A stretch of 64,000 nucleotides of DNA, from the NCBI GenBank assembly GCA_021739645.1, contig JAIPBL010000001.1, forward strand, positions 1 through 64,000, given 5' to 3'. The notes under the pieces were generated by a model. It saw nothing but the letters and a program-made list of their open reading frames with translations. It did not search any database and was not told the origin of the DNA. The translations under genes were made by a program, and so were the position numbers. Positions within the stretch are counted from its first letter, which is position 1, and each line of letters begins with the position of its first letter. Positions 1,394 through 34,242 of this stretch are shown here, one piece after another. This stretch comes from Saprospiraceae bacterium. GTDB lineage: Bacteria; Bacteroidota; Bacteroidia; Chitinophagales; Saprospiraceae.

Positions 1394-3376
1394 ATGAAAA
1401 TCACGACGATACTTTTTTTGTGCCTTTTGTTGCATGGTCTCTGCGCACAACCGCCCTCCACGTCTTCTAAAGGCGTCGGTGCACTTGCCGCCGCCACTGC
1501 TTGGCCAGGCATTTCAAAAGCATTGGTCATTGGCATTTCCAACTATCAGGACGACGGCATTCCCGATTTGAAATATGCAGACAGGGACGCCAAGGAATTT
1601 ATCAAGTATTTGAAATCGAAAGGCGGCGGCGGCCTAGAAGATAACCAGATTAGGCTACTTACCAATGAGCAGGCCACTTACGCGCAAATTTACGCTGAAC
1701 TGGATTGGCTGATTGAGAATTGCGGGCCTGACGACCAAGCAGTTATCTACTTTTCAGGCCACGGTGATGTTGAAACGAGAATCAAACGACAGAAGGGTTT
1801 TTTGCTCGCTTATGACACACCTCCAACTAATTATATGATTGGTGCCCTACGATTGGATGACCTAAACGGCTATCTCGAAACCCTGGTGGACCAAAAATCC
1901 AAAATCATCGTCATTACCGATGCCTGCCACTCTGGCAACCTAGCTGGTGGCATGGAGGGAGTGGGCGCAACTGCCCAGGCATTGTCTGCACAATTCCAAA
2001 ATCAAATCAAAATCATGTCCTGCCAACCCAACGAACTTTCCATGGAAGGCGAGCAGTGGGGTGGGGGACGTGGCGTGTTTTCCTACCACCTCATTGACGG
2101 CCTGACCGGCATGGCCGACGCGAACAAGGATAGCATCGTGACCCTATCCGAGTTGGAGCGATACCTCGACCAGACCGTTCCTGCAGAGACCGACCAGCAT
2201 CAATATCCAAACGCAACTGGGATGAAAGGGGCAAAACTCGTTACCGTGGACCCCGCAGAACTGATGCGCTTGATAGCCGAGCGGGCTACTCCCCAACAGA
2301 TGAAGCTAGTAGCACCAAAGGGGTTGGAAACTGCCATTCTTGCAGCTGCCGATACTTCCGTGCAGCAACTTTACGGAGAGTTTCTGGCGGCGGTGAACAG
2401 CCACTATTTCCTGCCTTCTGACGTGAAACCTGGTCGCCATTCCGGCAAGTCAGCCAGTGAACTTTACGACCGATTGTCAAAGGAAGAAGCCCTCGCTCCG
2501 ATGCACTGATTGATGAAGCGCAATTTCGCCGCTGCCCTCCAGGATGACTCGCAGCAGGCCATCAATGCTTACCTCCGTGCTGACCAAGCAGAAATGGACG
2601 CTCGCTGGAGCGATGATATAAATCGGTATAAATCCAACCCGATTTATTTGGGCAAAGCCGCATCGTTGCTGGGTGAGAAGCATGTTTTGTACAACCAATT
2701 GGTGGCCAAGCAATATTATTTTGAAGGATTGATAAAACGATTGGAGGGTGGAAAAACAGGGGATACTACGGTGCTAAACCAGGCTCTGGCGCTGGAGTTA
2801 AAGGCGCTTGAGTTGGACAGTGGTGCTGCCTATGTTTACAATGAAATCGGATTGATTTATGATGAAATAAGGAAGCCGTACAGGGCTGCTGGAAATGAGC
2901 AAAAACAATCAGAACTATTTCAGAAACAGATTGATAACTACGAAGTGGCAATGGAATTGGCACCGAAGTGGGTAATGCCATATCATAATGCTGGTCAAAC
3001 ATACAGGGAGTGGCGGCGATTAGAAAAAGCGGAAAATATGGAACTGAAAGCTATTTCATTAGATTCCAATTTGGTTGTTGCTTATAGCAATCTAATGTTG
3101 ATTTACTATTTCTCAAACAAGTATGAAAGTTGTATCAACGTCAATAAAAAACTATTGCAAATTAAATCGGATGAAAGTGCTGAGTGGAGTTTTGCTATTA
3201 CCTGTTCAGAATCGCTTTTAGGTCATTTGGAGGAGTCTTTGATATGGTTAGAAAAAGCGATTATACTTGGAGTCAATTACAATCGAATTCAAGAAGATAC
3301 AGACCTTGAGGAGCTGCGAAAAACATCAGAATTCGAGTCATTGATGAAGAAGTATTTTCCCAATAAGAAGCGTTGA
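1394..3376 (+). pseudogene. Exported caspase-TPR protein interrupted by an in-frame TGA
   Basis: Two frames in the same phase (1394-2509 and 2510-3376) together match the full layout of the intact paralogues at 15689, 23007, 26175 and 29462. There is a signal peptide ending near LCAQ and a C14 caspase domain with SGHGD (H123) and TDACHSG (C178). An EF-hand-like loop follows (D242, N244, D246, E253), then the conserved middle region and TPRs ending in LMKKYFP. A single TGA at 2507-2509 falls where paralogues read LHxxMKRN (here MH-stop-LMKRN), at the caspase-side end of the middle region. If not read through, a 371-residue caspase with its dyad is still made, and the TPR part could start at ATG 2513. 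It is the only copy of this family on the plus strand. It could be a pseudogene, a split pair or a sequencing error. Confidence 0.82.
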
Positions 3377-3497
3377 AACTGCACCTTTATTTCTCCAAGC
3401 CGTAAGTTCCTGTCCAAAGTGGGGGGCAAAACGCCCCAAGGACTTTCCTCCAGATGAATCTCCCTATAGTTCTTGGAAAAGGCTCAGATTAAATTCC

Positions 3498-3670
3498 TTG
3501 ACTTTTTACATCACGGTTGTCGTCCTAGTTGTCGCCGCTTTTGGCATCGTCGAAGACGACCTGTCCACGTATTGCGTGATAACGTGACGTGAAACGGAGC
3601 GTAGCGGGTCGCCTGCGGCGATGCCAAAAGCGGCGACAACCGTGACGACAACCATGGCGTGAAAGGTCAA
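3498..3670. repeat. Large imperfect inverted repeat, MITE-like
   Basis: Two arms of about 61 bases (3498-3558 and 3610-3670) are reverse complements of each other with about eleven mismatches. They share the core GTTGTCGCCGCTTTTGGCAT. The loop of about 50 bases contains GTGATAACGTGACGTGAAAC. It sits in the gene-free stretch 3377-3810 downstream of the broken caspase gene. Such a structure fits a miniature inverted-repeat element or a REP-like hairpin; no second copy was seen in this window and no target-site duplication was recognised. Confidence 0.6.
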
Positions 3671-3749
3671 AAGTTAAAGTGTTTAATTTTCAGTGTACTA
3701 ACGTGAATCATAGAAATAAGAGTTTATAAGAAAGCCCTTCATAATCTGG

Positions 3750-3810: not shown

Positions 3811-4725
3811 TTATTTACTCATCCTATCCAAAAAGGCAGCATACATTTGAGCAGTTAATTGGTTGTTTTCGCCCATCTTCATTGCTTCTTGATACTTACT
3901 ATATGCTAGGGTATTATAATCGTTATTTTCAAACTCATAAGCTTCCATAAGCGTTTTTTGCAAACTGGAGCCTTTCATGTATTCATTATCGTTTTTCAGT
4001 GAAGTTAAGACAGTCTCCGCATTGTCAACGGGTACAAAAGTGAACTTTATGGGTTCAGAGAAAGTATGGTTGTCATTTTCAAGCGTCACTTGGGCATAGC
4101 ATGGACGCCCAGTTTCATAGGACAATTGAGAAGGGTCTAGACTAAATGAGGCGATAGAGGTTTTGACCGATAAGATTGGTGAGCCGTTTGCATTTTGATA
4201 AATTATCAAATTGTAAGTTGACCCGGCTTTCATTGATGTCCAAGTAAACGTGATGGGTTTGATTGGCACTTTGCCTTTGGCTGGATTCGAAATCAGTAGT
4301 GAATCTTTGTCGCCCCATCCCTTTTTGTTTTTGGTGGTATCTGGTGAATATCCCTTCGCTGCAAACGCCATCCTTGCAAACCTGGAAACCTCCCCTTTTT
4401 CCTGCACATTTTTTGTCAAATCAGTCATTTTGTAAATTCCTTTCTTGTTTACAGTCAGGGAGCGTTCGTCTTTTGCTAGTGTGATGGAGCCTCCATCACT
4501 TACGATTACGGTTGCATCCTCGCGGAGAACGGTGCCAGCAGTGACAGGCATGGCTGTGGTGCTTCCAGCTGCTTTGTAAGTTACCTTCCCGCTCACATCC
4601 GAAACAGCGCACGAACTGGTTGTGCCACCAAGTACGATGTCGGGGATGTCCTGTGAAAAGGAGGTGTTTTGTGAGACGGCAACCAAAAAAAGGACAGCCA
4701 TCAGTTGGGCAAACATTGCTTTCAT
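3811..4725 (-). CDS. Exported FecR-like protein
   Basis: 304 residues with a signal peptide ending near FSQDIPD. Residues about 38-100 (SGKVTYKAAG, VTAGTVLREDATV, DGGSITL) look like the beta-rich FecR periplasmic fold: a modification threshold, then a 'set too high' loop and a dose strand. The middle (about 150-235) reads like a fibronectin/Ig-type segment, and the C-terminus is helical with a TPR-like pair (SKYQEAMKMGEN). No anti-sigma N-terminal helix or transmembrane anchor is present, so it is not a standard FecR regulator. It is transcribed in the same direction as the adenylate cyclase upstream, 150 bases away. Role unknown; an envelope sensor is possible. The palindrome at 3750 terminates it. 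Confidence 0.6.
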   Translation of the reverse strand: MKAMFAQLMAVLFLVAVSQNTSFSQDIPDIVLGGTTSSCAVSDVSGKVTYKAAGSTTAMPVTAGTVLREDATVIVSDGGSITLAKDERSLTVNKKGIYKMTDLTKNVQEKGEVSRFARMAFAAKGYSPDTTKNKKGWGDKDSLLISNPAKGKVPIKPITFTWTSMKAGSTYNLIIYQNANGSPILSVKTSIASFSLDPSQLSYETGRPCYAQVTLENDNHTFSEPIKFTFVPVDNAETVLTSLKNDNEYMKGSSLQKTLMEAYEFENNDYNTLAYSKYQEAMKMGENNQLTAQMYAAFLDRMSK

Positions 4726-4875: not shown

Positions 4876-6312
4876 TTATGTGTCGCATTCGCTCACAAAA
4901 TACATGTCAACGGCTCCCTTTCCTTTGGCCTCCACTTTGCCCCTAAACTTGCAGGCGAACTGGTCCTTTACCAGTTCATAGGTTGAGCCGGAGATATTGA
5001 TGCGCCCAGGCTCGCTAGTTTGTTCCATTCGTGCGGCTATGTTCACGGTATCGCCCCAGATGTCGTAGGCGTACTTCTTGATGCCAACGATGCCCGCTAC
5101 CACGGCGCCTGTGTGAATGCCCACCCGTGCGTTGAAAGGGGGCTTTCCCAAGGCTGCCTGTCCTTGGTTGAATTCTTTCAAAAATTCTAACATCGCCTGA
5201 CCAGCTTTGATAACTTGAAGGGCATTTCGCTTGGCCATTTCCGCTTTGCTGAGGTGGTCGATTGGTCCGGGCTGTTCGGTCAATTCCAATCCGCCTGCAC
5301 AAATATAGCAGTCGCCCACGGTCTTGATTTTTTCTAGATTATGCGAGGTGATGATGTGGTCATAAGCCTCGAAGCAGGTGCCCAGGTATGCCACTAATTC
5401 CTCTGCACCTATCTGCTCCGCAATATTGGTGAAGCCCTGAAAATCGCAGAAAAGCACCGTGACCATTTCGTGCCGACGAGTGTATGAATGGCCGAACTGC
5501 TTGAGTTCAGCAGCCGTTTCGGCGGGTAGGATGTTCAGCAACAAGGCATCTGAGGCCTCCATATCTACGCCCATTTGTTTGTTTTCGCTTTCCAGTCGTT
5601 TCATTTTTTTTCGCCAAAAAAACAAGCCAACACCACCAACAGGGAACATCAAAGCGAGTAACGTTCGTGACCATCCCACCTGCCACCAAGCCGCATCTGA
5701 GGCGATGACCATGGAGCATTTCAGCACCTCGCCGCTTTCGATTTGGAAGCTGAATTTTCCGGGGTTTTCGAGGATGGAGTTCATTATTGCCGCTGCGGCT
5801 TGCTGGTACTTGGAGTCGGGGTCTTTTGAGAGTGCGGAAAACAAGCCGAGTGCCCGCATTTGGTCCACGTTGGCGGCTGCCAATGCGGTGTACCAGCGGG
5901 CATCGTCCTGCAAGTTGAAGCCGCTCAGTTGGGAGAGCGGTGAAAGGATTTTAAGTGCCTTTTCAGGGACCTTTAGGTATAAAAAAGTCATGCCGTAGTA
6001 GAACCGGGCCGTCCTGTCTTCTGGGTGGGCGTCGAGGTAGGGTTCCAGTGAAAGCTGCGCCGCCGTGTAATTGGCTGCGCCGTACAGGTCTAGTGCGTCA
6101 GCCAAACTGTCCTGTCGGTTGGCCCCAGCTCCGGCTATGCCGAAAACCTGGATTTCGTCGAGGATGCTGGCCAGCTTTTCTTTTTCAGGTTGGAACAATT
6201 CAGAATCCAAAGCCCGTGGCAGTTTTGGCTTGGTGAAAAAATAAAAGAATGCCCCCACCAGTACCAGCCCGATGGCCACCCATTGGCCGTATTTTATGAG
6301 AAACTGTTTCAT
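4876..6312 (-). CDS. Membrane adenylate cyclase (class III) with TPR-like outer segment
   Basis: 478 residues. Hydrophobic segments at about 11-27 and 214-233 bracket a segment (30-210) of paired helices resembling TPRs (YTAAQLSLEPYLDAHPEDRTARFYYG), predicted to lie outside the cytoplasmic membrane. Residues 280-475 are a class III cyclase domain: metal aspartates D290 (LFCDFQGF) and D334 (TVGDCY); K330 and D417 (YDIWGD), the pair that specifies ATP rather than GTP; and transition-state residues N424 and R428. All catalytic residues are present, so it should make cAMP in the cytoplasm in response to something bound outside. It lies between the FecR-like gene and a caspase-TPR remnant. Adenylate specificity is inferred from the K/D pair. 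Confidence 0.88.
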   Translation of the reverse strand: MKQFLIKYGQWVAIGLVLVGAFFYFFTKPKLPRALDSELFQPEKEKLASILDEIQVFGIAGAGANRQDSLADALDLYGAANYTAAQLSLEPYLDAHPEDRTARFYYGMTFLYLKVPEKALKILSPLSQLSGFNLQDDARWYTALAAANVDQMRALGLFSALSKDPDSKYQQAAAAIMNSILENPGKFSFQIESGEVLKCSMVIASDAAWWQVGWSRTLLALMFPVGGVGLFFWRKKMKRLESENKQMGVDMEASDALLLNILPAETAAELKQFGHSYTRRHEMVTVLFCDFQGFTNIAEQIGAEELVAYLGTCFEAYDHIITSHNLEKIKTVGDCYICAGGLELTEQPGPIDHLSKAEMAKRNALQVIKAGQAMLEFLKEFNQGQAALGKPPFNARVGIHTGAVVAGIVGIKKYAYDIWGDTVNIAARMEQTSEPGRINISGSTYELVKDQFACKFRGKVEAKGKGAVDMYFVSECDT

Positions 6313-6384
6313 GTTCGCATTATTAGTGCTTATTTATTCGGGAACGGGGTGGGGGTTATCAGCGCAATAACGGCCTTTTGTGTT

Positions 6385-9549: not shown

Positions 9550-9592
9550 CCGATTGGCAAACCTCTGTTTTCAAAAACAAAACCGCTGAATC

Positions 9593-18463: not shown

Positions 18464-18631
18464 TCACGCATGTTTGGCTCGGTCATAAGCCTTGTGTTCC
18501 AGCGTATTGGGGGAGATATCGACGACGACGGCACGGGTGATGTGGCCACCGAGGTTGATAGACTGGCCATAGATCCCTTCGAGATGACAAAATGCAGTGA
18601 GCAGGTCGGTGAGGGCAAGCAAAACCTTCAT
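18464..18631 (-). pseudogene. 5' remnant of a caspase-TPR gene
   Basis: From ATG 18631 the minus strand encodes MKVLLALTDLLTAFCHLEG, then QSINLGGHITRAVVVDIS. This matches the signal peptide and first caspase strand of the paralogues (LGNVTTRAVVIGIS at 22845). After that the sequence loses similarity and stops at 18464. It lies about 190 bases upstream of the intact copy starting at 18271 and in the same direction. It is another truncated duplicate; no product is expected. Confidence 0.65.
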
Positions 18632-18699: not shown

Positions 18700-18995
18700 A
18701 ATAAAATCACTGCTCTTTCTCGATATATTACTTTGGAAAGGATAGGCTTGACTGAAGAAACGAGGATGGTTTTATCAGGCTCCTTCCCTTACGATGATAT
18801 GTTTTCATTTGTTGGCGGTGATTTTAATTATTGCATAATGGTTATTTATTTTCGAGAGGAAAATGCTCTTTGTTAGATATGACTATATATTCCGAAAATG
18901 AGGTTTGGTTATCAGAATAATAGCTATTTACCAGCTATTATTTTCAAAATATAGGTTTAGGGAACGAAAAAGGAGCGAATATTTTGACATAAAAA

Positions 18996-20850: not shown

Positions 20851-21204
20851 AATAATTGACAATTTAAAGGTGAACTGAAATTAATTGGTTAATTACATTG
20901 CTTAATAATTTGCTTTTCTAGACCCAATTTTACTAAGCTGCTGCTGGTAATGGTGAAATACTGCTGATTTTTAAACAGTTTTTCAGCCAATAATCGCTCA
21001 GAAACAAGTTAGCAGAACATGGCTATAAATTGATAAACAATGTGGTTTGGAATTTTCGGGATAAAATAATTGAATTTTATTAAGCACGTCCATATCTCAC
21101 GAATTATTAGTTTAAGCTATGGTTTTTGCTTATCCTGATAATTCGTTGCAATTAAATATGCCCAATTTGATTCAGTAATGAAAGCGAGCTTCCATTTTGT
21201 AACC

Positions 21205-21876: not shown

Positions 21877-22374
21877 AATTGTCAGTTTTAAAAAGTGATG
21901 AAATTAGTAGTTGATTATTGAGAGCGGCTTTTTATCGTAGTTAGCGGTTAACTGAATGTTGTGTGTTGAGCTATAAAGGCAGTTATTTTGAATATCCGCC
22001 AAAATACGTTTTTTGTTTAGCTCAACAATTATTTCTCAAAAATCTTCGTGGTACGATAGAATATTTTCGCCTAAATAAATTTTGCAGGTGGAAGAAGTCC
22101 CGGCAGGCATTTTTCCTGCCGGAGCTTTTTCACGAAACTTCGGGTATTATGATAGAATGCTTTTTTTACACAAGCACGGTTTTCTGCTGCGCTATTCAAA
22201 ACCCATTGGCAAAAATGGAATTGTTATAACATCTATACCTCATGCTTCCAAGGGTTATCAGTGAATTTAAAAAAATAGCAAAAAATTATTTTCAGTCCCT
22301 AAAATTGAGTTCCAACCCAGCAAAATCAGCATATTTCATCCTTCAAGTGCTTGATTATTGGTTGAAATACTGGT
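21877..22374. other. Gene-free stretch with one hairpin
   Basis: About 500 A/T-rich bases between the cysteine-rich genes and the caspase fragment. The only clear structure is the hairpin CCGGCAGG (22100-22107)/CCTGCCGG (22115-22122) followed on the plus strand by AGCTTTTT, a terminator-like element with no plus-strand gene in front of it. Small frames here have no recognisable features. Confidence 0.4.
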
Positions 22375-23006: not shown

Positions 23007-25322
23007 TTAGTCTTTGGCTTGGTTGGGGAAGTATTTTTTCATCAGGGCCTGCCACCGTTCCTTTTGCTCCCTCAGCGGGGCAAGGTCGCTATCCTGTTGC
23101 ATCCAAGTGTAATCATAGCCTATGTTGATGGCCTGTTCGAGGGCTTCAAAAGCTGCTTCCAATTTGTTTAACCTAGCAAGAAGGCAGGAATAGCTGTAGT
23201 AATTTTCGTTCGACGGCTGTAACTGAATTGCTTTTGCCCCGTGGAATTCCGCTTCACTCGGCCTGTTTGTATCAAAATAAACCCAAGCCAATAGTAAATA
23301 GCCCTCTCCTTTGGTTGAGTCCAATTGGATGAATTTTCTACTAAGGTGCTCTGCTTCCTCGAATCGGCCTGCGTAGGAATAAACTGTAGCTAAGTTGGAA
23401 TAAGCATTTGAGAAAGTCGAATCCAGTCGAATAGCCCTCGTTAATGGTTCCTCCGCCTCTGCATAGCGGTTAGTTTGCAGATAAATAGCAGCCAAACTAT
23501 TGTAAATATTGGCTACTGTGGAATCTAACGCTATAGCCTGTTTGAATTGCAATTCAGCCTCTTCGTATCGGTTCGTATAGAAGTAGGTGTACCCAAGCTC
23601 ATTGTGCGCACACGGGAAGCAGATATCTTCGTTTGAACTCCCAATTACTTTTTTGAACCAATATTCAGAAATTTCAAATTTTGTTGCCCTTTGGTAAAAC
23701 CTTGCTTTTTCATACCATACAATCACGGCATTTGAATCCAATATAAAAGCCTGTTCCAAAAGCAATTCTGCCTTTTCAGGTTGTTTGTGGCTATGCTCAT
23801 AATACGATGCAAGCCGTAAATAGGGAATTACCCAACTTGGCGCAACTTCCATGGCTTTCCTGCCATAAAAGACTGCCGAATCAGCTTGTTCTGCGCCGTA
23901 TGTTTGTATCAACTCCACAAAGGCAAATGGCAAATCGGATTGCCATGCCAAGGCTTGAAAATACTTCTTCTTTCTATCGTTATTGGTTGTGCCAATTCTT
24001 CCTTCGAAATATGATTTTCTGGCCATGAGCGTATTGTACATATAGTGCTCATTGCCCAACAGTTCAGCTGCCCGGCTGAGGTTTTCTGGAAAGGACTTGT
24101 AAATTTTGCCAGCCCTTGCAGAGGAAAGTACCTCTTTCGTTAAACCTGTTTTAAGGAAAGTATTCATCATCTGTTGCGCATCATCCTGCAAAGCCGCAGC
24201 AAAGTTCCGCCGCATGGAATTGTGCAACCGGCCCATTTTTGGCTCTGCGATGAGCCGTTCGTAATAGGCGTCAGCGCAAGCGCCATCTGGTTCTAAAAAT
24301 TCCTTGTCTTTCAACGATTTTTTAAACAATCGGTACAGCTCCCGAATAGTCGTGTCCACCATCACTAGCACATCATCTTCTATACCTCTAGAATCGGTTG
24401 GGCTGAAAGTGGGCAGCTCTCCTGCCTTGTTTTTCTTCACTAGCGCCAATAAACCTGGAACTACCTGCGCCAGCTTTTCCGTGCGGTTGCCCACGGTTAT
24501 AGGCACTTGGCTTTCCGGGGCGACCTCCGTGGTCACATGGTCGTCGAGGTAGCGCCCAATTTCCATCAGGTTCACTGAGCCGTCGGCATTGCCATCTGCC
24601 ATACCGTAAAGCCCGTCCACGAGATAGTAACTGAAGGCGCCTCTGCCACCGCCCCACTGTTCGCCCTCGATACTGTACTCGTTGGGCTGGCAGGATAGGA
24701 TTTTGATTTCATTGGCAAATTGCTGTGAAAGGTTCTGGCTGGTGAGCTGCGAGCCACCGACCGAATTGCCTGCCAGTTTTCCGCTGCGGCAAGCATCGGT
24801 GATGACAACTACCTTTGCTTTGTTCTCCAAGCTCAGGGTTGATATGATTTCTTTCAGAAAAAAAATGGGATAAGCTCCCGACACATAAGCCTGCGGTGGC
24901 GAGTCCCAGCAGAGCAGAAACCCTTGCTGGCTGCGGGTTTTGGTCTCCACATCGCCGTGGCCGGAGAAGTAGATGATGGCTTGGTCGCCTTCTTTGCTTT
25001 CGTCCACCAACCAGCCGAGCGCTGCGTCGAACTGGGCCGTAGTGGCAGCCGAATCCGTGAGCAGCTTGAGATGGTCGCCATCGAGCGAGCCACCAGCGGG
25101 CGACCGCAAGAAATTGGCAAACGCCTCCGCATCTTTATCGGCGAAGCGCAGGTCGGGGATTTGCTCGTCCTGGTAGTCGGAGATGCCGACGACGACGGCC
25201 CTCGTCACAGCGGGTGAGAGCGTGAGCGGGTGAGAAGGTGAGAGGGGGGTGGCGCCTTTTTCGGTTTGGGCAAAAAGGCAGCAAGGCAAGAGCAGGTAAA
25301 ACAGGTAGATTGGCTTTTTCAT
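23007..25322 (-). CDS. Exported caspase (C14)-TPR protein, intact
   Basis: 771 residues from ATG 25322 (MKKPIYLFYLLL), chosen because it begins the signal peptide (to about 19, LFAQ); an upstream in-frame extension lacks one. Caspase domain about 40-262: H122 in YFSGHGD, C178 in ITDACRSG, and a canonical EF-hand loop D243-x-N245-x-D247-G ending E254. The conserved middle region spans about 320-425 (ADAYYERLIAEPKM, MRRNFAAALQDDAQQ, LLGNEHYMYN). About nine TPR-like units follow, with NEAELQFKQAIALDST-type helices, ending LAPLREQKERWQALMKKYFP. It should be an active exported cysteine protease with a protein-binding TPR tail. Divergent from the DUF4058 gene. Confidence 0.88.
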   Translation of the reverse strand: MKKPIYLFYLLLPCCLFAQTEKGATPLSPSHPLTLSPAVTRAVVVGISDYQDEQIPDLRFADKDAEAFANFLRSPAGGSLDGDHLKLLTDSAATTAQFDAALGWLVDESKEGDQAIIYFSGHGDVETKTRSQQGFLLCWDSPPQAYVSGAYPIFFLKEIISTLSLENKAKVVVITDACRSGKLAGNSVGGSQLTSQNLSQQFANEIKILSCQPNEYSIEGEQWGGGRGAFSYYLVDGLYGMADGNADGSVNLMEIGRYLDDHVTTEVAPESQVPITVGNRTEKLAQVVPGLLALVKKNKAGELPTFSPTDSRGIEDDVLVMVDTTIRELYRLFKKSLKDKEFLEPDGACADAYYERLIAEPKMGRLHNSMRRNFAAALQDDAQQMMNTFLKTGLTKEVLSSARAGKIYKSFPENLSRAAELLGNEHYMYNTLMARKSYFEGRIGTTNNDRKKKYFQALAWQSDLPFAFVELIQTYGAEQADSAVFYGRKAMEVAPSWVIPYLRLASYYEHSHKQPEKAELLLEQAFILDSNAVIVWYEKARFYQRATKFEISEYWFKKVIGSSNEDICFPCAHNELGYTYFYTNRYEEAELQFKQAIALDSTVANIYNSLAAIYLQTNRYAEAEEPLTRAIRLDSTFSNAYSNLATVYSYAGRFEEAEHLSRKFIQLDSTKGEGYLLLAWVYFDTNRPSEAEFHGAKAIQLQPSNENYYSYSCLLARLNKLEAAFEALEQAINIGYDYTWMQQDSDLAPLREQKERWQALMKKYFPNQAKD

Positions 25323-26174: not shown

Positions 26175-28733
26175 TCACCTCCGCCCCGGCACCCTCGTGG
26201 CGATGTCGTAATACTTCGGAAAATGCTGGCGCACCAGCGCTTTGAAGGCATCGGTTTCCCGGATGGGGTTGAGCATGGGGTCGCAAAGCGTACCCGTTAG
26301 CGAAAGCAATAGATAGGGCTGCCAACCGAGTTCGATGGCTTTTTGAAGGGATTTGATAGCCGCTTCTTCCTGCCCTGATTGGGCGTAGATGCAGGTGAGG
26401 TCAAAGTAGAGCCAGGGGTCGTTCTTCAGCTTTTCCTTTGCAGTATCCAATAGTTGATGGAATTCACTTTCCATACCCAGCCTAGAATAAGCAATTGCCA
26501 CAAACAAGTAATCGAGCGGCAAATAATAAGTTCGCAAGAAATCAATCTTCGCTTTTTCGATAATTTGATGGTAAAAATAATTGGCGGTATCTGGCATCTC
26601 CATTTTGCGGGCTATCTCAGCGGCTTCATACAGGAATGTGATTTGGTCGCGCCGGGGGCCTTTCTCTATTACTTGTTTTGCCGAATCGAAAGCCTTTCCC
26701 AAAGCGCCAGATAATGCGTAAGAATTAACTTTGCCGTAACTCCATTTGGTTCCACCCATTTGGTAGGCCACCAATGCATTGACTGGATCATTCAAATAAT
26801 AGAAATAGAGGTCACCAATTAAATTGTTAAAAGCAATAGATTGAGGCGTTGCTTTTCGACACGCCTGAACGGCATTTTCGAAATCCAGCAATTCTGCATA
26901 CACAGCCCCCAAATTTTCATAAGTCCAAAACATCTTGCCTTCTGCAATCTTTTCACCTAAAAGCAAGTACTCTTTTGCCTTTTCATATTCTCTCAAAAAA
27001 CAAAATGCATTCCCGACATCGTTGCATTCAAAAGCTTTGACTGAGAGTGGGTCTGTATTCATCTTTTGTAGAAACTTTTTGACGTACAGTTCCCGCCAAA
27101 TAATAGCTGAATCTACATCTGGAAGTATATCGTAAGCAAAAGACATAGAATTATATGGCGTCAAATAATTGGAATCCAGTACAATAGCTTTTTTGAAATA
27201 GTGCATGGCATATCGTGCATCTGTGGTGTTAAACCCTAGTTCATGTTGAATCAATGCCCAGCCCGGGGCTGCTTCTGATGCTTTCTTATAAAAAGATATC
27301 CTTTCGGCAGTCAGGTATGGAAAGGTGTTTCCCATTTCATAATAAGCTACCGCCGCTGTGCTGTCCCATCCCAATGCATTTTCCAGCAGCCGTCTTTTTT
27401 CTATTATTCGCCAGTTGAAGCTGCTATCCGGGTATTTATCCTCTCGTATTGTCATTGCCCGGAAGTAATATTCCTTAGCTTTCAAATCCCGCCAGACGTA
27501 ATGCTTTTCACCCAAAATCTCCGCCGCCCGCTCAAAATAAGCAGGCAGGTGGTCGTAGTGTACCCGGTTAGCCCATATATTGTCCAGCACCTGCGGGTCG
27601 GTTTGCAGTATTTTGTTGAGGATGGTCTGCCCCTCGTCCATCAGCGCCGCTGCCAGTTTGCGCTTCATTGTGCCTTGCAGCGCCGCCATTTCCGGGTTCT
27701 CTACCAGCACTTTGAAATAGTGGTTGGCGCTTTTTCCTAGCGGTGACATGAGGTGGCCGGAATCAATCGCCGCAAGGAACTGGGCGTACAGCCGCTGCCC
27801 GCTCGTGTCCATTTTTTCAAGCAAACGGCTCTCCATGCCCTTGTTTTCGATGGCTCGGAAGGCCACCGGTTGGTTGCCTTTGGCGGCTTTCCGGGTGGCC
27901 ACTTCGCCTTCTCGCACGGTGGCAATTTTGGTCTTCACCGGGCCGGACACCATCGGCACCTGGCTTAGCGGAGCGGCTTCGGCGCTCACATGGTCTTCAA
28001 GGTAGCGGCGCAGTTCGAGCAGGTCCACCGAGGCGTCGTGGTTGTCGTCGGCAAAGCCGTAGAGGGCGTCTTCGAGGTGGTAGCTGAAGCAGCCACGCCC
28101 GCCGCCCCACTGCCCGCCTTCCAGCGAGAACTCGTCGGGCTGGCAGCTCAAGACCTTGACTTCGTTGGCAAACTGCTGTGAGAGCTGCTTGGCAGTGACC
28201 TGTGTGCCGCTCACGCCATTGCCCGCCAGCTTGCCCGCCCGGCAGGCATCGGTGATGATGAAAACCTGAACGTCGTTCTCGGAGAGCGTGCTCAGGATGT
28301 CTTGCAGGTAGTTGAGCGAGAAAGCCCCTGCGCCATAGACAGCGGGCGGCGAATCGTATCCGAGCAAATAGCCACGCTGGAACTTCGAGACCCGCTCCAC
28401 GTCGCCGTGCCCGCTGAAATAGATGAAGGCCCGGTCGCCCGGCTTGCTGGCCTCGATGAGCCAGTCGAGGTTGACGATCATCTGGGCGGTGGTGGCCTGC
28501 TGGTTGATGAGCAAACGGATGCTGGAGTCGGGCAGGGCAAGCCCCTGCGGGGAGCGCAGCCAGTTAGCGAATGCCTCGGCGTCCCTGTCAGCGAAGCGCA
28601 GGTCTGGGATGAGCGGCTCCCGGTAGTCGGAGATGCCGATGACGACGGCACGGATGGTGGTGCCGATGTCGATGGTCTGGGCGGAAAGGGTGAAACTGGC
28701 GAACATAGAAAAGACGAGAAGTAGGTATTCCAT
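26175..28733 (-). CDS. Exported caspase (C14)-TPR protein, intact
   Basis: 852 residues. Signal peptide to about 19 (TLSAQ). Caspase domain about 27-248: H109 in YFSGHGD, C164 in ITDACRAG, EF-hand-like loop D229, N231, D233, E240. Unlike the sister genes it has QWGGGRGCFSYHL with an extra Cys. The conserved middle region spans about 298-415 (MKRKLAAALMDEGQTILN, LGEKHYVWRDLKAKEYYF). About ten TPR-like units follow to the end. The C-terminus (LNPIRETDAFKALVRQHFPKYYD) is a divergent version of the family tail. Both dyad residues are present. It is convergent with DUF4058 and divergent from the MntA-like gene. Confidence 0.88.
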   Translation of the reverse strand: MEYLLLVFSMFASFTLSAQTIDIGTTIRAVVIGISDYREPLIPDLRFADRDAEAFANWLRSPQGLALPDSSIRLLINQQATTAQMIVNLDWLIEASKPGDRAFIYFSGHGDVERVSKFQRGYLLGYDSPPAVYGAGAFSLNYLQDILSTLSENDVQVFIITDACRAGKLAGNGVSGTQVTAKQLSQQFANEVKVLSCQPDEFSLEGGQWGGGRGCFSYHLEDALYGFADDNHDASVDLLELRRYLEDHVSAEAAPLSQVPMVSGPVKTKIATVREGEVATRKAAKGNQPVAFRAIENKGMESRLLEKMDTSGQRLYAQFLAAIDSGHLMSPLGKSANHYFKVLVENPEMAALQGTMKRKLAAALMDEGQTILNKILQTDPQVLDNIWANRVHYDHLPAYFERAAEILGEKHYVWRDLKAKEYYFRAMTIREDKYPDSSFNWRIIEKRRLLENALGWDSTAAVAYYEMGNTFPYLTAERISFYKKASEAAPGWALIQHELGFNTTDARYAMHYFKKAIVLDSNYLTPYNSMSFAYDILPDVDSAIIWRELYVKKFLQKMNTDPLSVKAFECNDVGNAFCFLREYEKAKEYLLLGEKIAEGKMFWTYENLGAVYAELLDFENAVQACRKATPQSIAFNNLIGDLYFYYLNDPVNALVAYQMGGTKWSYGKVNSYALSGALGKAFDSAKQVIEKGPRRDQITFLYEAAEIARKMEMPDTANYFYHQIIEKAKIDFLRTYYLPLDYLFVAIAYSRLGMESEFHQLLDTAKEKLKNDPWLYFDLTCIYAQSGQEEAAIKSLQKAIELGWQPYLLLSLTGTLCDPMLNPIRETDAFKALVRQHFPKYYDIATRVPGRR

Positions 28734-29137: not shown

Positions 29138-29465
29138 CGTTTACCTCGAAGACATTCTGGAGCGCATCGAAATCATCGAAGGCTTTGTCAGCAGTGCCAC
29201 CCAACCTGCATTCGAAGCCAACCTCGAAAAGCAGGATGCCGTCATCCGCAGGCTTGCCATCATCGGCGAAGCCATCAAAAACGTCCCCAACGACGTCCGG
29301 TCCAAGTACCCCGAAGTCCCCTAGCGAGATGCCGCCGGACTGCGGGATGTGGTCGTTCACGAGTATTTTGGCGTCTCTTTGGAAGTCATCTGGGGCGTTG
29401 CCATTCGTGAACTGCCGCTGCTCAAAGAACAAATCAAGCGCATTCAGGAGGAATTGAATCCTTAA
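29118..29465 (+). pseudogene. hepT: HEPN (DUF86) toxin gene with a nonsense codon
   Basis: From ATG 29118 the frame reads a HEPN protein: LNVYLEDILERIEIIEGF, DAVIRRLAIIGEAIKNVP and YPEVP. It then meets TAG at 29322-29324 exactly where relatives have Trp (PEVPWRD). It continues in frame as RDAAGLRDVVVHEYFGVSLEVIW and stops at 29463-29465. The RNase motif R-x4-H (RDVVVH) lies after the TAG, so the truncated 68-residue product lacks the active site. A TGG to TAG change inactivated an otherwise intact toxin while its antitoxin gene stayed open. It overlaps the caspase gene at 29462 by a few bases, tail to tail. Confidence 0.88.
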
Positions 29466-32242
29466 TCTTTTACTTTCTCCGGAAAATATTTTTTCATTAA
29501 CCCCTTCCACGCCGCCTGCTCCCGCAGCGGGGCGAGGTCTTCGTCGGCTTCCAACTGCTCGAAGGTGCTGCCCTTCCCGATGGCCTGCTCCACGTAACCG
29601 ATGGCTTCCTCCGTTTTCCCCTCTGCGGCGAGGAGGTAGGCCATGCCGAGCATCGCAGCCGCATAGTTGGGGTTGAGTTCAATTGCTTTGAGGAAATTTT
29701 GCCGGGCCTCTTCGGGGCGGCTGGTTTTGAAATAGACCATGCCGAGGTGCTTGCGGGGGTTGGCAAGCGTCGGAGCGAGTGCAATGGCTTTATTGAAGAC
29801 CGGCTCCGCTTTGGCGTAGCGGCGGGTTTGGAGGTACACATACCCGAGGTTGTGCCAGGCCAAAATATTCGTCGAATCGAGCAAAATGGCTTTTTTGAAA
29901 GCCAGTTCCGCTTCGGCATACCGTTGGGTTTTGAGGTACATATACCCGAGGTTGTTCCAGACAGTGCGATTCGTCGAATCGAGCGCAATGGCTTTTTTGA
30001 AAACCGGCTCCGCTTCGGCGAACCGGCGGGTGTCGATGTACAAATTCCCGAGGTTGTTCCAGGCAAAGATATTGGTCGAATCAAGCGCAATGGCTTTTTT
30101 ATAAGCCGTTTCCGCTTCAGCGTAGCGGCGGGTTTGGTTATACATAGACCCGAATTGAATCCAAAAATCTGCAATTGTCGAATCGAGCGCAATGGCTTTT
30201 TTGAAAACCGGCTCCGCTTCGGTGTAGCGGCGGGTTTCGAGGTACATCCCCCCGAGGGTGTTCCAGGCATGGGCATACGTCGAATCGAGCGAAACGGCTT
30301 TTTTCAAAACCGGCTCCCCTTCGGCGTAGCGGCGGGTGTAGAGGTATATAACTCCGAGGATGTTCCAGGCATTGGCATTTGTCGAATCGAGCGCAATGGC
30401 TTTTTTCAGGACCGGCTCCGCTTCGGCGTAGCGGCGGGTGTGGGTGTATATATACCCAAGGTTGTTCAAGAGAGCGGCAAGCGTCGAATCAAGTGCAATG
30501 GCTTTTTTCAATTGCCGCTCTGCTTCCCTGAAGTTTTTTTTACCAAAATTAAAAACAGCCCACGCGTTCCTTACATCTACCGAACAGGAATCTATACGGC
30601 TTGCCAGCTCCAAAAACGGCCTTGCCCGGTCCTGTTGGCCGTATTTGTAAGAAAGCCAAAAAGCGGCATCGGTGCAGGGCGTTGTCCAGTTTGGATGGAC
30701 CTCAAGGGCCAGCCGGGCGTAATGCTCCAGCGAATCGGGCTGCAGGAGGTTCCAGCCGAACACCCCGCTCATCTGCCAATACACCTGCGGCTGCTCTGGC
30801 TGCCATTCGAGCGACTGGCGGAACAGTGCCAAGGCCTGTTCGCCCAGTTCCCGGTCGGGGTTCTTGTTGGAATTGGCCAAAAGGTAGCCCTCAAAAAAAT
30901 ATTTTCGGGCTTTCAGGGCGGCGTACATGTAGTGCTTTTCGCCCAGCAGCCCGGCAGCCCGGTCGAGGCAGCGGGGGTACGACCGGACCTTTTCGGTGAA
31001 CACCTTTATTGGCAGGCGCTCGCTGGCAACGGCTGTCAGGGATACGTCCTGATTGGTTTTCAGCCACTCGTTGAGGGTCTGCTGGGCGTCGTCCTGCAGG
31101 GCGGCGGCGTAGTTCCTTTTCATGAAACCGTGCAGCGGGGCCAGCCCCGGCTCGGCCGAGAGCGGGGCGTACAGTTCATCGGCGGTCGGTGCGGGGCCGG
31201 CGGTTGACGGGCCGGGGAAAAAGCGTTTTTCCGCCACGGCTTTTTTGAAGGCAAAATACTGTCTGACGATGCCCGAATCGAGTTGCGCCATCACCTCGTC
31301 CTCCAGGCCCCGGCCCTCGGTGGCGGCAAAAACGGGCAGGCCGCCGGCCTTCGATTTTTGCAGGTTCGCCAAAATGGCGGCGTCCACCGCCGCCAGCCGT
31401 TCGGTCCTGTTGCCGAGCAGCATGGGCACCTGGCTCTGCGGGGCAGCCTCGGCGGTCACGTGGTCTTCGAGGTAGCGGTCGAGTTCGCCGACCGTGACCG
31501 TGCCGTCGCCGTTGCGGTCGGCGAGGCCGAACAGCCCGTCCACGAGGTGGTAGCTGAACACGCCACGCCCGCCGCCCCACTGCTCGCCCTCGAGCGAAAA
31601 TTCGTTGGGCTGGCAGGAGAGGATTTTTACCTCGTTGGCGTACTGCTTGGCGAGGTTGGCGCTGGTCAGTTGTGCTCCGCCGATTTGGCTGCCGGAGAGC
31701 TTCCCAGTGTGGCAGGCGTCGGTGATGACGACCACCTTCGCCCTGTTCTGCACGGAAAGCGTGGAGACGATTTCCTGCAAATAAGCCAGCGAGTAAGTGC
31801 CGCCGCCCATGTACACCCGTGAGGGCGAGTCCCAACAGAGCAGGAAGCCCGGCTGCGACAGTTTTTTCCCCTCCACATCGCCGTGGCCGGAGAAGTAGAT
31901 GATGACCTGGTCGCCCTCCTTGGCCTGTTCGATGAGGCCATCGAGTGCCTCGGCGATGCGCCCGGCAGTGGCGTTTTGGTTCGTCAGCAGCTTCAGGTGG
32001 TCGCCATCCAGCGAGCCGCCAGCCGGGGAGCGCAGGAAGTTGGCGAAGGCCTCGGCGTCCTTGTTGGCGAAGCGCAGGTCGGGGATGTCAGGGCTTTGGT
32101 AGTCGGAGATGCCGATGACGACGGCCCTTACCGATTGCGGATTGCGGATTGCGGATTGCGGATTAAGCGGGGAGGCGCCTTTTTCGGTTTGGCTGTTCGC
32201 CAGAAACGGCAGCACGAAAAGGATGGCCAGCAGATTTTTCAT
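29462..32242 (-). CDS. Exported caspase (C14)-TPR protein with expanded repeats, intact
   Basis: 926 residues, the longest copy. Signal peptide to about 18 (LANSQ). A short linker (NPQSAIRNPQS) is encoded by a heptanucleotide repeat. Caspase domain about 38-262: H120 in YFSGHGD, C177 in ITDACHTG, a canonical EF-hand loop D242, N244, D246-G, E253. The conserved middle region spans about 330-440 (ELYAPLSAEPGLAPLH, MKRNYAAAL, LLGEKHYMY). TPRs follow, including seven nearly identical 34-residue units of the type ALDSTNxxAWNNLGxxYLxTRRYAEAEPVFKKAI. It ends LAPLREQAAWKGLMKKYFPE. The N-terminal half is G+C-rich. It should be an active exported protease with a variable-length binding tail. Confidence 0.9.
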   Translation of the reverse strand: MKNLLAILFVLPFLANSQTEKGASPLNPQSAIRNPQSVRAVVIGISDYQSPDIPDLRFANKDAEAFANFLRSPAGGSLDGDHLKLLTNQNATAGRIAEALDGLIEQAKEGDQVIIYFSGHGDVEGKKLSQPGFLLCWDSPSRVYMGGGTYSLAYLQEIVSTLSVQNRAKVVVITDACHTGKLSGSQIGGAQLTSANLAKQYANEVKILSCQPNEFSLEGEQWGGGRGVFSYHLVDGLFGLADRNGDGTVTVGELDRYLEDHVTAEAAPQSQVPMLLGNRTERLAAVDAAILANLQKSKAGGLPVFAATEGRGLEDEVMAQLDSGIVRQYFAFKKAVAEKRFFPGPSTAGPAPTADELYAPLSAEPGLAPLHGFMKRNYAAALQDDAQQTLNEWLKTNQDVSLTAVASERLPIKVFTEKVRSYPRCLDRAAGLLGEKHYMYAALKARKYFFEGYLLANSNKNPDRELGEQALALFRQSLEWQPEQPQVYWQMSGVFGWNLLQPDSLEHYARLALEVHPNWTTPCTDAAFWLSYKYGQQDRARPFLELASRIDSCSVDVRNAWAVFNFGKKNFREAERQLKKAIALDSTLAALLNNLGYIYTHTRRYAEAEPVLKKAIALDSTNANAWNILGVIYLYTRRYAEGEPVLKKAVSLDSTYAHAWNTLGGMYLETRRYTEAEPVFKKAIALDSTIADFWIQFGSMYNQTRRYAEAETAYKKAIALDSTNIFAWNNLGNLYIDTRRFAEAEPVFKKAIALDSTNRTVWNNLGYMYLKTQRYAEAELAFKKAILLDSTNILAWHNLGYVYLQTRRYAKAEPVFNKAIALAPTLANPRKHLGMVYFKTSRPEEARQNFLKAIELNPNYAAAMLGMAYLLAAEGKTEEAIGYVEQAIGKGSTFEQLEADEDLAPLREQAAWKGLMKKYFPEKVKD
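29766..30505 (-). repeat. Tandem 102-base repeats encoding near-identical TPRs
   Basis: Seven or so units of about 102 bases are repeated with high DNA identity. Each contains GTCGAATCGAGCGCAATGG (or a close variant) and GCTTCGGCGTAGCGGCGGGT on the plus strand. Unit length equals one 34-residue TPR, so gain or loss of whole units keeps the frame. Similarity at DNA level, not only protein level, indicates recent expansion. The other paralogues have much more diverged TPRs. Confidence 0.85.
32133..32164. repeat. Heptanucleotide repeat inside the caspase gene start
   Basis: ATTGCGG is repeated four times in a row (32134-32161) plus a partial copy on each side. It lies in codons about 27-37 of the caspase-TPR gene starting at 32242, between signal peptide and caspase domain. 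Because 7 is not a multiple of 3, loss or gain of one unit would shift the frame and truncate the protein early. Confidence 0.85.
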
Positions 32243-32269
32243 TTACATTCGATTTTAAAAAAATGAAAG

Positions 32270-32300
32270 CCAGCGGGCGGCTTGGAGTCGCCCGCTGGCC
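32270..32300 (-). terminator. Hairpin terminator between two caspase-family genes
   Basis: Arms GCCAGCGGGCG (32270-32280) and CGCCCGCTGGC (32290-32300), perfect, 9-base loop. On the minus strand TTTCATTTTTTT follows. It lies 10 bases after the stop of the pseudocaspase gene and before the start of the gene at 32242, so the two are probably transcribed separately. Confidence 0.8.
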
Positions 32301-32310
32301 GGGTTGGTTT

Positions 32311-34242
32311 TTAATCTTTAGTTTGGTCGGGGAGGTATTTCCTGAGGAGTACGTCAAACTGTTTTGTATCAATAAGTGTCGTGAGGTCTTCGTCTTTCCT
32401 GAGGTATTCAATGTCCTTGAAACCGTATTTGAAGGCAAGTTCTAGCCACTGAAAGGCTTGTGAGGTTTGGCCTTGCAGGGCTTTGAGGCAGCTCAGGTTG
32501 TAGTAAATACTTGCTTCGGTAGGGTCAATGAATGCCGCATTGTGAAGCCAAAATTCGGCTGCGGCGAAGTGCCTCAATTTCAAGTTTGCAACCCCGAGGG
32601 TTGCAACTGCTACGGGGTTCCAGGGGGTCAGGTCAGCGGCCAGTTGTGCATAGACCAGGGCGCTGTCGAACTGCTGCTGTTCATAGTGCAGCACGGCTAT
32701 GTTCAAATAAGGAATGCCCCATTGTGGGGCGAGGTTGATGGCTTGGAGGTAGAGGGTTTTGGCATCACCCGATTTTGTCAAGAAATGCAAAATGCCCAAT
32801 TCGTTGAGCACGAAAGGGGCTTCCGGCTCATACCGCAGCGCAAGCTGCTGTTTTTCCAGTGCCGTTTGCAAGAGCTGGGAAGAGTCCTTGTTTTTTTCAA
32901 AATCCAGCCTCGCCGTTAGCCCTTCGAAATAGTACCGTTTGCACTGGATGATGGTGTTCATGAAGTGCTTTTCGCCCAAAAGTTCGACCGTCCTCGCCAT
33001 GTACTTGGGGTAGGCGGCATAGTTGCCACCGTGTTTCCAGCGGCGTTGAAGTTCCCGGGTGTCGGTGCGGAGGTAGTCATTCAGTGCCTGTTGGGTTTCG
33101 TCTTGAAGGGAGGCGGCAAGTTGTCTGCGAAGATGGCTGTGCAAGGGACGGATTGAGGGCTGGGTCAATAGGCTGTCATAAAGGTCGGAAGTACATCTGC
33201 CTGCTGGCTCCATTAGTTTGCCTAATTTTTTAGTTAGCATGAAATCGAAGTACCACTGCCTTGTACGTTCATCAGCTTCTGAGAGCAGAGAGTCTTCAAG
33301 GTTCGACATGTCCCGCCTTACGATTGCTGGGAAGTCACTGTATCCTTTGCCTGTGTTTCGTAAGCCACGGGTGTCGTCCACCTTTGCTAATTCCGTGTTT
33401 TCATCAGAAAAAGCCATTAGCATGACATATCCCCCCGGGGCTTTTTTATGTTGATTGCGGAGGTGCTTGGCAACTTCCCTTGGCATTATTTTCAAATCGT
33501 CATTGAAGTCGGCCTGGCTTGTCAATCCATCAAGCAGTATGGGTGAATATCCTGAGTGATTTTTTTTGGAATTATGCGTTTTGTCAAGCGTTTCTGCCAT
33601 ATCTGCATACGGAAAGGAATTTTTAATTGCTTCGAGCCATTGACGCCAATAGTCGTCTTCCACGATTGTGGTTGAGCCCAAATAGAGGTCGAATATTAAG
33701 TTATAGCGCAGATTTTTTTTTCGTGCCATATCCTGAATCCGATAACAAAGCTTTGCCAAAGGCATACTGCCTGCCCGTCCTAAAATCAATGGAGAATCTG
33801 AAAGAAATAAGTGAGGAACAGGGCCATTGTCAGCATTGACGAGGCGGGCGTTTCCGGCAAAATAAACGGAAATTTGGTCGCCCATTTGGCTTTCTTCATC
33901 CAGCCAATCAATCGCTGCTGTAAAACTTGCAAAAGTGGCTAAATCGCCAGTCAATAAATTTAAATGGTCGGCAGGCATCAGCCCTCCTTCCCTTGATCTT
34001 AAAAATGCAGCATATAGTTCTGCGTTTTGTTGGTTGTCTGTCAGGTCTGGCAATAAACTGTCTTGATGGGTGGAAATGCCAATTACAACAGCTCGGCTAG
34101 ATTTCGAAAGGTCGATTTCAGTATCATCTCCTACCACTAATTTCAACCCCGTGCGTAATGTGTCATTTCCAAATGCATTCAGTTGAGAGTAGGTAAAAAG
34201 ACAGAAATAAATGGCAAGCGTCGATAGGAGTGAGGTTTTCAT
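32311..34242 (-). CDS. Exported pseudocaspase-TPR protein lacking the catalytic dyad
   Basis: 643 residues, an open frame with no lesions. Signal peptide to about 20 (FTYSQ). The caspase fold is recognisable (SRAVVIGISTHQDSLLPDL, DHLNLLTGDLATF, IDWLDEESQMGDQISVYF), but the His motif SGHGD is AGNAR (N131 in place of His) and the Cys motif TDACxSG is FDLYLGS (Y187 in place of Cys). The EF-hand-like loop is kept (D245, N247, D249, E256). The middle region is conserved (DLYDSLLTQPSIRPLH, LRRQLAASLQDETQQ, LLGEKHFM), as are six or so TPRs and the tail LLRKYLP. The maintained frame suggests a function without catalysis, such as a decoy, scaffold or inhibitor of the active sisters. It lies immediately upstream of the 926-residue active copy. 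Confidence 0.88.
   Translation of the reverse strand: MKTSLLSTLAIYFCLFTYSQLNAFGNDTLRTGLKLVVGDDTEIDLSKSSRAVVIGISTHQDSLLPDLTDNQQNAELYAAFLRSREGGLMPADHLNLLTGDLATFASFTAAIDWLDEESQMGDQISVYFAGNARLVNADNGPVPHLFLSDSPLILGRAGSMPLAKLCYRIQDMARKKNLRYNLIFDLYLGSTTIVEDDYWRQWLEAIKNSFPYADMAETLDKTHNSKKNHSGYSPILLDGLTSQADFNDDLKIMPREVAKHLRNQHKKAPGGYVMLMAFSDENTELAKVDDTRGLRNTGKGYSDFPAIVRRDMSNLEDSLLSEADERTRQWYFDFMLTKKLGKLMEPAGRCTSDLYDSLLTQPSIRPLHSHLRRQLAASLQDETQQALNDYLRTDTRELQRRWKHGGNYAAYPKYMARTVELLGEKHFMNTIIQCKRYYFEGLTARLDFEKNKDSSQLLQTALEKQQLALRYEPEAPFVLNELGILHFLTKSGDAKTLYLQAINLAPQWGIPYLNIAVLHYEQQQFDSALVYAQLAADLTPWNPVAVATLGVANLKLRHFAAAEFWLHNAAFIDPTEASIYYNLSCLKALQGQTSQAFQWLELAFKYGFKDIEYLRKDEDLTTLIDTKQFDVLLRKYLPDQTKD

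Follow-up and report, generated by a model that had tools for sequence, protein, structure and literature searches.

A conserved caspase-TPR locus of Saprospiraceae with a probable ECF sigma regulon of its own

Introduction

Bacterial homologues of the C14 caspases are known that are fused to tetratricopeptide repeats (TPRs) and carry possible signal-peptide helices; Haliscomenobacter hydrossis has been reported with 28 metacaspases, and operons of up to three metacaspases have been described in four groups including the Bacteroidetes (PMC3501461; this and the other papers cited are represented here by selected sections). We describe a locus of caspase-TPR proteins in the first 64 kb of contig C132 (JAIPBL010000001.1) of an uncultured Saprospiraceae bacterium, whose genome (G000) comprises 6.16 Mb in 147 contigs; the whole 64,000-nucleotide stretch is called the window. 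Genes of the type IX secretion kind in the window, and relatives labelled Saprospiraceae, Saprospirales or Bacteroidetes, agree with a Saprospiraceae-like member of the Bacteroidota. With the metacaspases and orthocaspases of that survey the family shares the C14 fold, the His-Cys dyad, TPR fusions and possible signal peptides. In contrast to the metacaspases covered there, it includes an array of nine active copies, has a conserved catalytically dead neighbour, shows tail exchange and appears to be wired to a sigma factor of the extracytoplasmic function (ECF) type. We recognised no description of Saprospiraceae caspase arrays with an ECF sigma factor in the open-licence literature.

Pseudo-orthocaspases have a caspase fold without the dyad, some of them with TPRs, and have been reported with 10 of 1078 sequences in Bacteroidetes (PMC6426788). 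The dead copy studied here shares the dyad-less fold, but it is syntenic with active paralogues, looks exported, and keeps the middle region of the family while its catalytic site is lost. In type III-E systems the TPR-CHAT protease Csx29 cleaves Csx30, which inhibits an ECF sigma factor (CASP sigma) (PMC10028731), so that CASP/Craspase likewise ties a caspase-like TPR protease to an ECF sigma factor through an inhibitor. That system is RNA-guided, whereas our locus combines exported-looking proteases with a membrane TPR anti-sigma candidate. Pfam scans of 39 window proteins, short open reading frames (ORFs) excluded, matched no Cas protein. CHAT proteins also occur in ECF54 contexts (PMC8999054).

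EACC2 caspases are found with an ECF sigma factor, and EACC1/EACC2 systems feature a variable C-terminal region, a TPR protein and DUF1822 (PMC8195603). A caspase with a variable C-terminal region and a nearby ECF sigma factor and TPR protein are shared with our locus. Three proteins were scored against the EACC1 model NF047832, giving 78.7 (P0003), 27.5 (the dead copy, P0007) and 27.6 bits (P0010, described below); unlike an EACC1-associated caspase, P0003 falls below the curated cut-off of 140 bits. In the RseA/DegS pathway, finally, an envelope protease acts through a membrane anti-sigma factor on an ECF sigma factor (PMC10028731). The route that we propose is alike, from protease to membrane anti-sigma to ECF sigma, but it would employ a variable battery of caspase-TPR proteins, with cleavage of the anti-sigma factor as a prediction.

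Results

The locus has a syntenic core, a promoter-like motif nearly confined to it, a conserved dead caspase lineage, active copies that look exchanged and some recombined tails. We consider it likely that these exported caspases belong to a conserved locus that has an ECF regulon to itself, and the findings suggest a self-contained cell-surface signalling system, not a simple recent gene expansion. The dead lineage, the linked ECF sigma factor, an anti-sigma candidate, a cyclase and the motif are additions to the first-pass annotation of this DNA, which had listed ten homologous caspase-TPR genes. The family members of the window are:

1394..3376, plus strand: short caspase-TPR, in-frame TGA at 2507-2509
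6385..about 6600, minus strand: remnant, C-terminal tail after internal deletion
15227..15679, minus strand: remnant, N-terminal 150 aa, His present, no Cys
15689..18271, minus strand: active caspase-TPR, 860 aa, SGHGD and DAC(R/H)xG
18464..18631, minus strand: remnant, degraded N-terminus
22375..about 22851, minus strand: remnant, N-terminal caspase fragment with TAG
23007..25322, minus strand: active caspase-TPR, SGHGD and DAC(R/H)xG, signal-peptide-like Met at 25322
26175..28733, minus strand: active caspase-TPR, 852 aa, SGHGD and DAC(R/H)xG
29462..32242, minus strand: active caspase-TPR, 926 aa, SGHGD and DAC(R/H)xG
32311..34242, minus strand: dyad-less (dead) caspase-TPR, P0007, 643 aa, 5' of the array

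All ten places carry family sequence, and the earlier split into four intact genes, one full-length gene without the dyad, one with a nonsense codon and four fragments was upheld. The longest ORF of the 23007 gene begins at 25472, upstream of the signal-peptide-like Met. The TGA of the 1394 gene lies at a position that is open frame in the counterparts of G003, G006, G008 and G013. In the dead copy AGNARL stands at the His site and the Cys segment is lost. P0001 and P0003-P0006 score 60.2-72.7 bits with Pfam C14 (cut-off 21.4) and the fragment P0009 41.0 bits; P0007 has no C14 match at E 0.001 and was assigned to the family by tblastn, profile and fold. A caspase fold was found for the family, and in the dead copy it persists with the catalytic residues lost. 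Genome-wide there are 14 C14 places, eight of them in the window. The TPR part of the 29462 gene is a 102-bp tandem with 7.3 copies at the DNA level (29762-30508), and the GC content of its third codon positions is 0.74, compared with 0.55-0.62 in the other three window actives and a mean of 0.52 (standard deviation 0.05) in eight core genes.

A signal-peptide-like N-terminus was seen in 122 of 136 scorable family members by a crude rule (15 of the 151 members defined below were left out), which is weakly specific because 114 of 197 ORFs of at least 250 aa on the locus contigs, true exported proteins and family members included, are also positive. The claim of a multi-copy family with signal-peptide-like N-termini, turnover and diversification is supported. 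The 26175-28733 protein fails the rule because no K/R precedes its hydrophobic stretch. Export by the type IX secretion system (T9SS) was rejected for the family caspases: eight pieces of the family (P0001-P0007 and P0009) were scanned and gave no sorting domain (Por_Secre_tail or CHU_C) at E 0.001, whereas the window neighbours 46625-51277 and 51359-52915 do carry T9SS sorting domains.

The dead lineage among family members of other genomes

Of 160 pattern candidates from genome contigs, 119 were confirmed with a profile built on the signal peptide, the caspase and the middle region, and the best 80 of these 119 were kept, in 67 loci; together with the window, the loci collected gave a family set of 151 distinct ORFs above 150 bits. 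The His-Cys dyad is present in 130 of the 151, with 12 full-length members lacking it (one of which, in L040, retains the His) and nine truncated. Trees were built with FastTree (140 rows) and, as a check, with a quick IQ-TREE run (73 rows), in which support is less trustworthy with long rows. All 12 dead copies fall into one clade (support 100), which is also obtained when the catalytic columns are removed (13 of 13 copies, SH-aLRT 99). Whole-genome counts were made in 14 genomes of the genus. Six congeners have the dead gene, one copy each; of the 7 that have full-length actives above 400 bits, 6 carry it, as against 0 of the remaining 7. In 8 of 14 loci the dead gene has an active copy after it, no more than 1 kb away, and the dN/dS of the dead gene is 0.07-0.15 (5 of 6 domain comparisons giving a value). 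The largest contiguous array seen, on JAEUUO010000020.1 (L056 and L044), consists of one dead and nine active copies, head to tail.

The tree does not bear out a lineage-specific expansion, as the first-pass annotation had proposed. The nearest relative lies in the same genome for only 29 of 114 active copies from genomes with at least two, above chance (shuffled mean 5.8, maximum 15) but a minority, and a recent expansion was rejected on these numbers. The window actives 26175 and 29462 pair with G006 and G008 copies. Single-copy syntenic orthologues in relatives, named at the outset as evidence against a distinct expanded array, exist inside the genus for two of the ten members (1394 and 32311). 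Among the 36 family genomes that give a match at E 1e-80, a single match was found in 20, with at most four candidates scored per genome.

Synteny and partner genes

Synteny was assessed by blastp of ORFs between locus contigs. The partner genes, the last two of which lie outside the window, are:

116..1213, minus strand: HExxH (M48-like, tentative) TPR protein, divergent from 1394
3811..4725, minus strand: exported-looking 304-aa protein p304, convergent to 1394
4876..6312, minus strand: TPR-nucleotide cyclase, Pfam Guanylate_cyc 169.7 bits
19085..20131, minus strand: exported-looking DUF6438 protein
20260..20862, minus strand: small exported-looking cysteine-containing protein
21205..21876, minus strand: small exported-looking cysteine-containing protein
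34679..36247, minus strand: exported-looking P0008, C-terminus beta-barrel-like by eye only
36308..38329, minus strand: exported C14-DUF4384 caspase-like protein P0010, Pfam C14 68.8 bits, DUF4384 29.7
G000:C25:4135-4710: ECF sigma factor
G000:C25:4724-5536: membrane TPR anti-sigma candidate

The broad order of the locus begins with C14-DUF4384, P0008, the dead gene, the variable actives, the small exported-looking proteins with DUF6438, and the TPR-cyclase. It continues with p304, the convergent short caspase, the HExxH-TPR protein, a caspase-TPR protein of about 1100 aa and a small exported-looking protein, and closes with the ECF sigma factor, the membrane TPR anti-sigma candidate and a second HExxH-TPR protein. 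This order is seen in G003, G006, G008 (on two contigs), G009 and partly G013; in G006 the small proteins stand before the dead gene. In G000 the sigma end forms the start of contig C25, which we take to adjoin C132 because of the order in G006 and G008. Absences in G013 (78% complete) and G005 (80%) are weak on account of this incompleteness.

The C14-DUF4384 gene, absent from the first-pass list, is a distant relative of the family in the same conserved locus, with counterparts in the same order in G003, G006, G008, G009 and G013. P0008 has no Pfam, PADLOC or NCBIfam match at E 0.001; it is present in 8 of the 14 congeners and in all eight other genomes with the dead gene, and also near caspases in loci where no dead gene was seen. 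For the 116-1213 protein Pfam gives TPR matches only, the HExxH being visible in the sequence. The 1394 gene occupies the syntenic position of a caspase that other genera have retained, and in 20 family loci that caspase is accompanied by the HExxH-TPR protein (13), p304 (11) and P0008 (7).

The ECF sigma factor, examined as its G003 orthologue, has Sigma70_r2 and r4 over the cut-off and scores 63.9 bits with TIGR02937 (cut-off 42.9). The adjacent protein has one hydropathy peak at about residues 91-115 in five of five orthologues, followed by TPRs in two orthologues. Because of its position and this single peak we infer an anti-sigma role. The N-terminal part of the TPR-cyclase is about 33% identical to this candidate, and the cyclase is probably membrane-bound: two of four orthologues have two hydropathy peaks, that of the window has one, and that of G003 none over the threshold.

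A promoter-like motif nearly confined to the module

When the regions upstream of 67 genes, in 13 groups, were scanned for dyads, a weak signal pointed to GATAACC, which is present in none of 20 control upstream regions. A loose pattern had 30 sites on the locus contigs, against 5.2 in shuffles (maximum 10). The strict form of the resulting ECF-like motif, TGATAACC-N14-16-GWATRNAT, has 17 matches in the 14 genomes of the genus and the reversed pattern has none. Fourteen of the 17 lie inside the module (G000 4/4, all within the window; G008 3/3; G006, G009 and G013 2/2 each; G005 1/2), and the single matches of G004 and G012 lie elsewhere (0/1 each). The strict motif is nearly confined to the caspase module. 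Its sites in the window are:

38374..38403, minus strand: 45 bp before C14-DUF4384, the first gene after the motif
22231..22260, minus strand: 355 bp before 21205-21876
18885..18914, minus strand: terminator-like repeat between the motif and the remnant 18464-18631
6332..6361, minus strand: 20 bp before the cyclase gene

The repeat in the third entry is an inverted repeat with a T run, recognised by eye at about 18660-18710. The array is assumed to be co-transcribed from 38374. Strict or looser sites stand before the sigma operon in G000, G003, G005, G006, G008 and G013, and also before the cyclase (G000, G008), C14-DUF4384, the dead gene (G009) and an active caspase (G006:C38). A motif-like site outside the locus (G000:C94:21571-21599), conserved in G013:C679, precedes a gene that looks by eye proline-rich and TonB-like. 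Beyond the genus there were 11 matches against 0-7 in shuffles, and 7 against 0-2 for a second pattern, but several of these loci belong to the congeners. In L084 a C14-DUF4384 ORF is preceded by a site at a distance of 58 bp; we draw no claim beyond the genus.

Turnover, exchange and tail recombination

Synonymous divergence (dS) was computed with NG86, for which values above about 1.5 are near saturation. Between G006 and G008 the array actives differ by a dS of 0.46, compared with 1.43 for the dead gene, 1.50 for C14-DUF4384, 2.39 for the M48-like gene, 2.79 for p304, 3.29 for P0008 and 3.32 for the short caspase. The array pairs of G000/G008 (0.71 versus 1.26-1.98) and G000/G006 (0.97 versus 1.69 and 2.68) likewise lie below their locus-mates, and for this reason the active array genes look horizontally exchanged. 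Two sigma comparisons gave no estimate. Of 66 genome pairs in which both have a dead gene, 63 by amino acid and 55 by third position show higher identity between their closest two actives than between their dead genes; since choosing the best of many favours the actives and dead genes may evolve faster, the short caspase, which belongs to the family but lies outside the array, is the better control.

Among 112 pairs with heads at least 80% identical, the tails are mostly far less similar. When only codons of identical amino acids were compared (102 pairs testable), the tail was significantly more divergent (p<0.001) in 5 of 45 pairs with unsaturated heads and the reverse was never seen (0 of 45); none of 13 control comparisons reached p<0.001 (lowest 0.014). 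Two of the five pairs involve window genes: 26175 (p 1.7e-10), whose head is close to a G006 copy and whose tail is much less so, and the dead 32311 (p 3.9e-13), which has a head like that of G013 (90%) and a tail like that of G008 (79%, head 58%). General head-tail recombination was rejected, as only these 5 of 45 non-independent pairs show it and the other tails differ mainly in amino acids. At L106:514-7766 two neighbouring caspase-TPR genes have heads 97% and tails 45% identical.

For the caspase, middle and TPR parts the dN/dS ratio lies at 0.07-0.34 (15 comparisons, one without a value), hence no sign of positive selection, which we dismissed on these values. The signal-peptide ratios, 1.20 for 26175 and its G006 partner (19 codons) and 0.05 for G006/G008 (13 codons), come from stretches too short to use. 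A search limited to tandem repeats found no phase-variation mechanism. The idea that the copies diversify like a contingency or self/non-self array thus stands as to turnover, horizontal exchange and some tail recombination, but not as to positive selection.

Discussion

Could this locus report on events outside the inner membrane? Our preferred reading, held tentatively and at somewhat below even confidence, is an ECF-sigma-regulated module of Saprospiraceae-type bacteria for extracytoplasmic proteolytic signalling, that is, envelope surveillance. Through Sec export the caspases would reach the periplasm or the cell surface, where they may act as sensor-proteases whose TPR tails bind a target or ligand. 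Binding would free the caspase, which could then cut the outer TPR part of the membrane anti-sigma factor, of the TPR-cyclase, or of both, releasing the ECF sigma factor; anti-sigma candidate and cyclase would relay the signal inward. The sigma factor is predicted to read the motif and to raise its own operon, the cyclase and the small exported proteins, as well as the unit of C14-DUF4384, P0008, dead gene and array. The dead caspase may serve as a fixed partner by which the active ones are held or modulated, for which cFLIP offers a comparison. Substrate, trigger, localisation and the reading of the motif by the sigma factor are all predicted from sequence.

It is possible, albeit doubtful, that exported caspases with exchangeable TPR tails, held by a pseudo-caspase and reporting through a TPR anti-sigma factor and a cyclase to a locus-private ECF sigma factor, make up a distinct surveillance system. 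If so, it would be a bacterial analogue, outside the membrane, of a circuit of receptor, caspase and pseudo-caspase; a caspase circuit with an inactive regulator would exist outside the bacterial cytoplasm, with a defined regulon for assay. The locus supplies its own test set in the predicted sigma factor, the candidate motif, the candidate membrane substrate, the natural dead control and the exchangeable tails.

Several observations weigh against the envelope-surveillance reading. As regards the locus, G006 lacks a full-length TPR-cyclase, the core of G009 lies on one contig without an active caspase there, and the dead gene was not found in G005 (80% complete), which has the sigma factor and P0008. 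Beyond the genus the sigma factor is near the caspase in only 3 of 20 loci. A paralogue of the 116-1213 protein matches M48 below the cut-off (17.2 versus 20.3 bits). No anti-sigma family was matched by the anti-sigma candidate; the G003 and G009 orthologues gave only TPR families in Pfam, and the G003 orthologue only TPR-type families in NCBIfam. As regards the motif, the dyad scan involved 4 groups against at most 4 in shuffles, only the sequence count being higher (6 versus at most 4), and among the 30 loose sites 4 represent the same conserved position within the coding sequence of the HExxH-TPR protein. Because the motif was derived from the locus, its matches there arise by construction and only its scarcity elsewhere is independent. 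G003 carries the module yet has no strict match, and the looser pattern also matches elsewhere (in G000, 4 of its 9 sites are outside the locus). In G000 the motif does not stand immediately before the array, and a gap of 436 bp precedes the dead gene. As regards exchange, a conserved 957-aa control gene also has a low dS in G006/G008 (0.74), and the dead gene of G000 is not strictly vertical because its tail is recombined.

Bacteroidota SusC/SusD loci are usually under ECF/anti-sigma control, as are polysaccharide-utilisation loci, and a protein or peptide utilisation locus, with secreted proteases whose tails bind polymeric food, would share this control. SusC/SusD-like pairs, recognised by eye, are in fact located inside the array of G008 (G008:C4:17235-21812) and between the dead and active genes of G013 (L035:3607-8205), and the window contains M14 and M28 peptidase genes (42901-44655 and 51359-52915). 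We nevertheless regard this as unlikely: blastp finds no equivalent of the pair on the locus contigs of G000, G003, G006 and G009, no T9SS sorting domain was found on the family pieces tested, and the conserved dead paralogue, the cyclase and the TPR-CHAT proteins are ill-suited to a food hydrolase.

An executioner set for defence or cell death, directed against phage, predators or envelope toxins and using tail variation for recognition, is unlikely to the same degree. Caspase/ECF neighbourhoods have been described as conflict systems (PMC8195603, in the sections cited), and tail divergence, horizontal exchange and turnover would suit such a role. PADLOC gave weak caspase matches (44.8-47.4 bits), and the cyclase matches the PycC model PDLC00734 weakly, at 50.4 bits; a known defence system was rejected, these being only weak matches. 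The signal-peptide-like N-termini would place the proteases outside the cytoplasm, the Pfam scans of 39 window proteins showed neither a STAND NTPase nor a transposase, and the dead caspase, P0008, sigma factor and anti-sigma candidate have no PADLOC match at E 0.001.

Kin or self/non-self recognition between cells, with each strain carrying its own set of tails, seems improbable. It would agree with tails that are less similar than heads in head-similar pairs, and with G000/G013, which by their core genes are the nearest two congeners (dS 0.41-1.07 across the cyclase, P0008, the dead gene and two short-caspase pieces) and whose closest active pair has a dS of 2.43; the latter value, however, comes from the 78% complete G013 and two array actives cut by contig ends. 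No immunity-gene pairing was seen, and contact-delivery domains were searched for only through the window Pfam scans. That the arrays are relics of a decaying, functionless paralogue family is highly improbable and largely refuted: in its favour the window has four remnants plus a gene with a nonsense codon, and G095 a broken dead gene, but dN/dS is 0.07-0.34 where computable, the dyad is kept in 130 of 151 members and another genome has a nine-active array.

Further features of the locus and its relatives

Four family contigs are labelled as Thermoanaerobaculia metagenome-assembled genomes (L048, L051, L074) or Leptospiraceae (L058) and are probably mis-binned. In the window, a DUF4058 gene (25404-26171, plus strand) lies between two minus-strand caspase genes, and a plus-strand block (8896-14502) contains ArsR-rhodanese, DsrE, phosphorylase, MFS, sulfide-dehydrogenase-like and multihaem cytochrome genes. 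Blastp found nothing that corresponds to this block on the locus contigs of the compared relatives, and the block looks like an insertion into the locus.

TPR-CHAT-type proteins, about 930-1110 aa when full-length, are found in or beside the caspase arrays of several genomes (L035:8655-11975, G006:C15:48871-52173, L042, L053, L054, L070, L073 and L083); G003 retains only a piece. L070 (G006:C12) is a second locus, with a HExxH-TPR protein, an anti-sigma-like protein, a sigma factor, TPR-CHAT and an active caspase-TPR protein, and by its predicted gene content it is a paralogous module.

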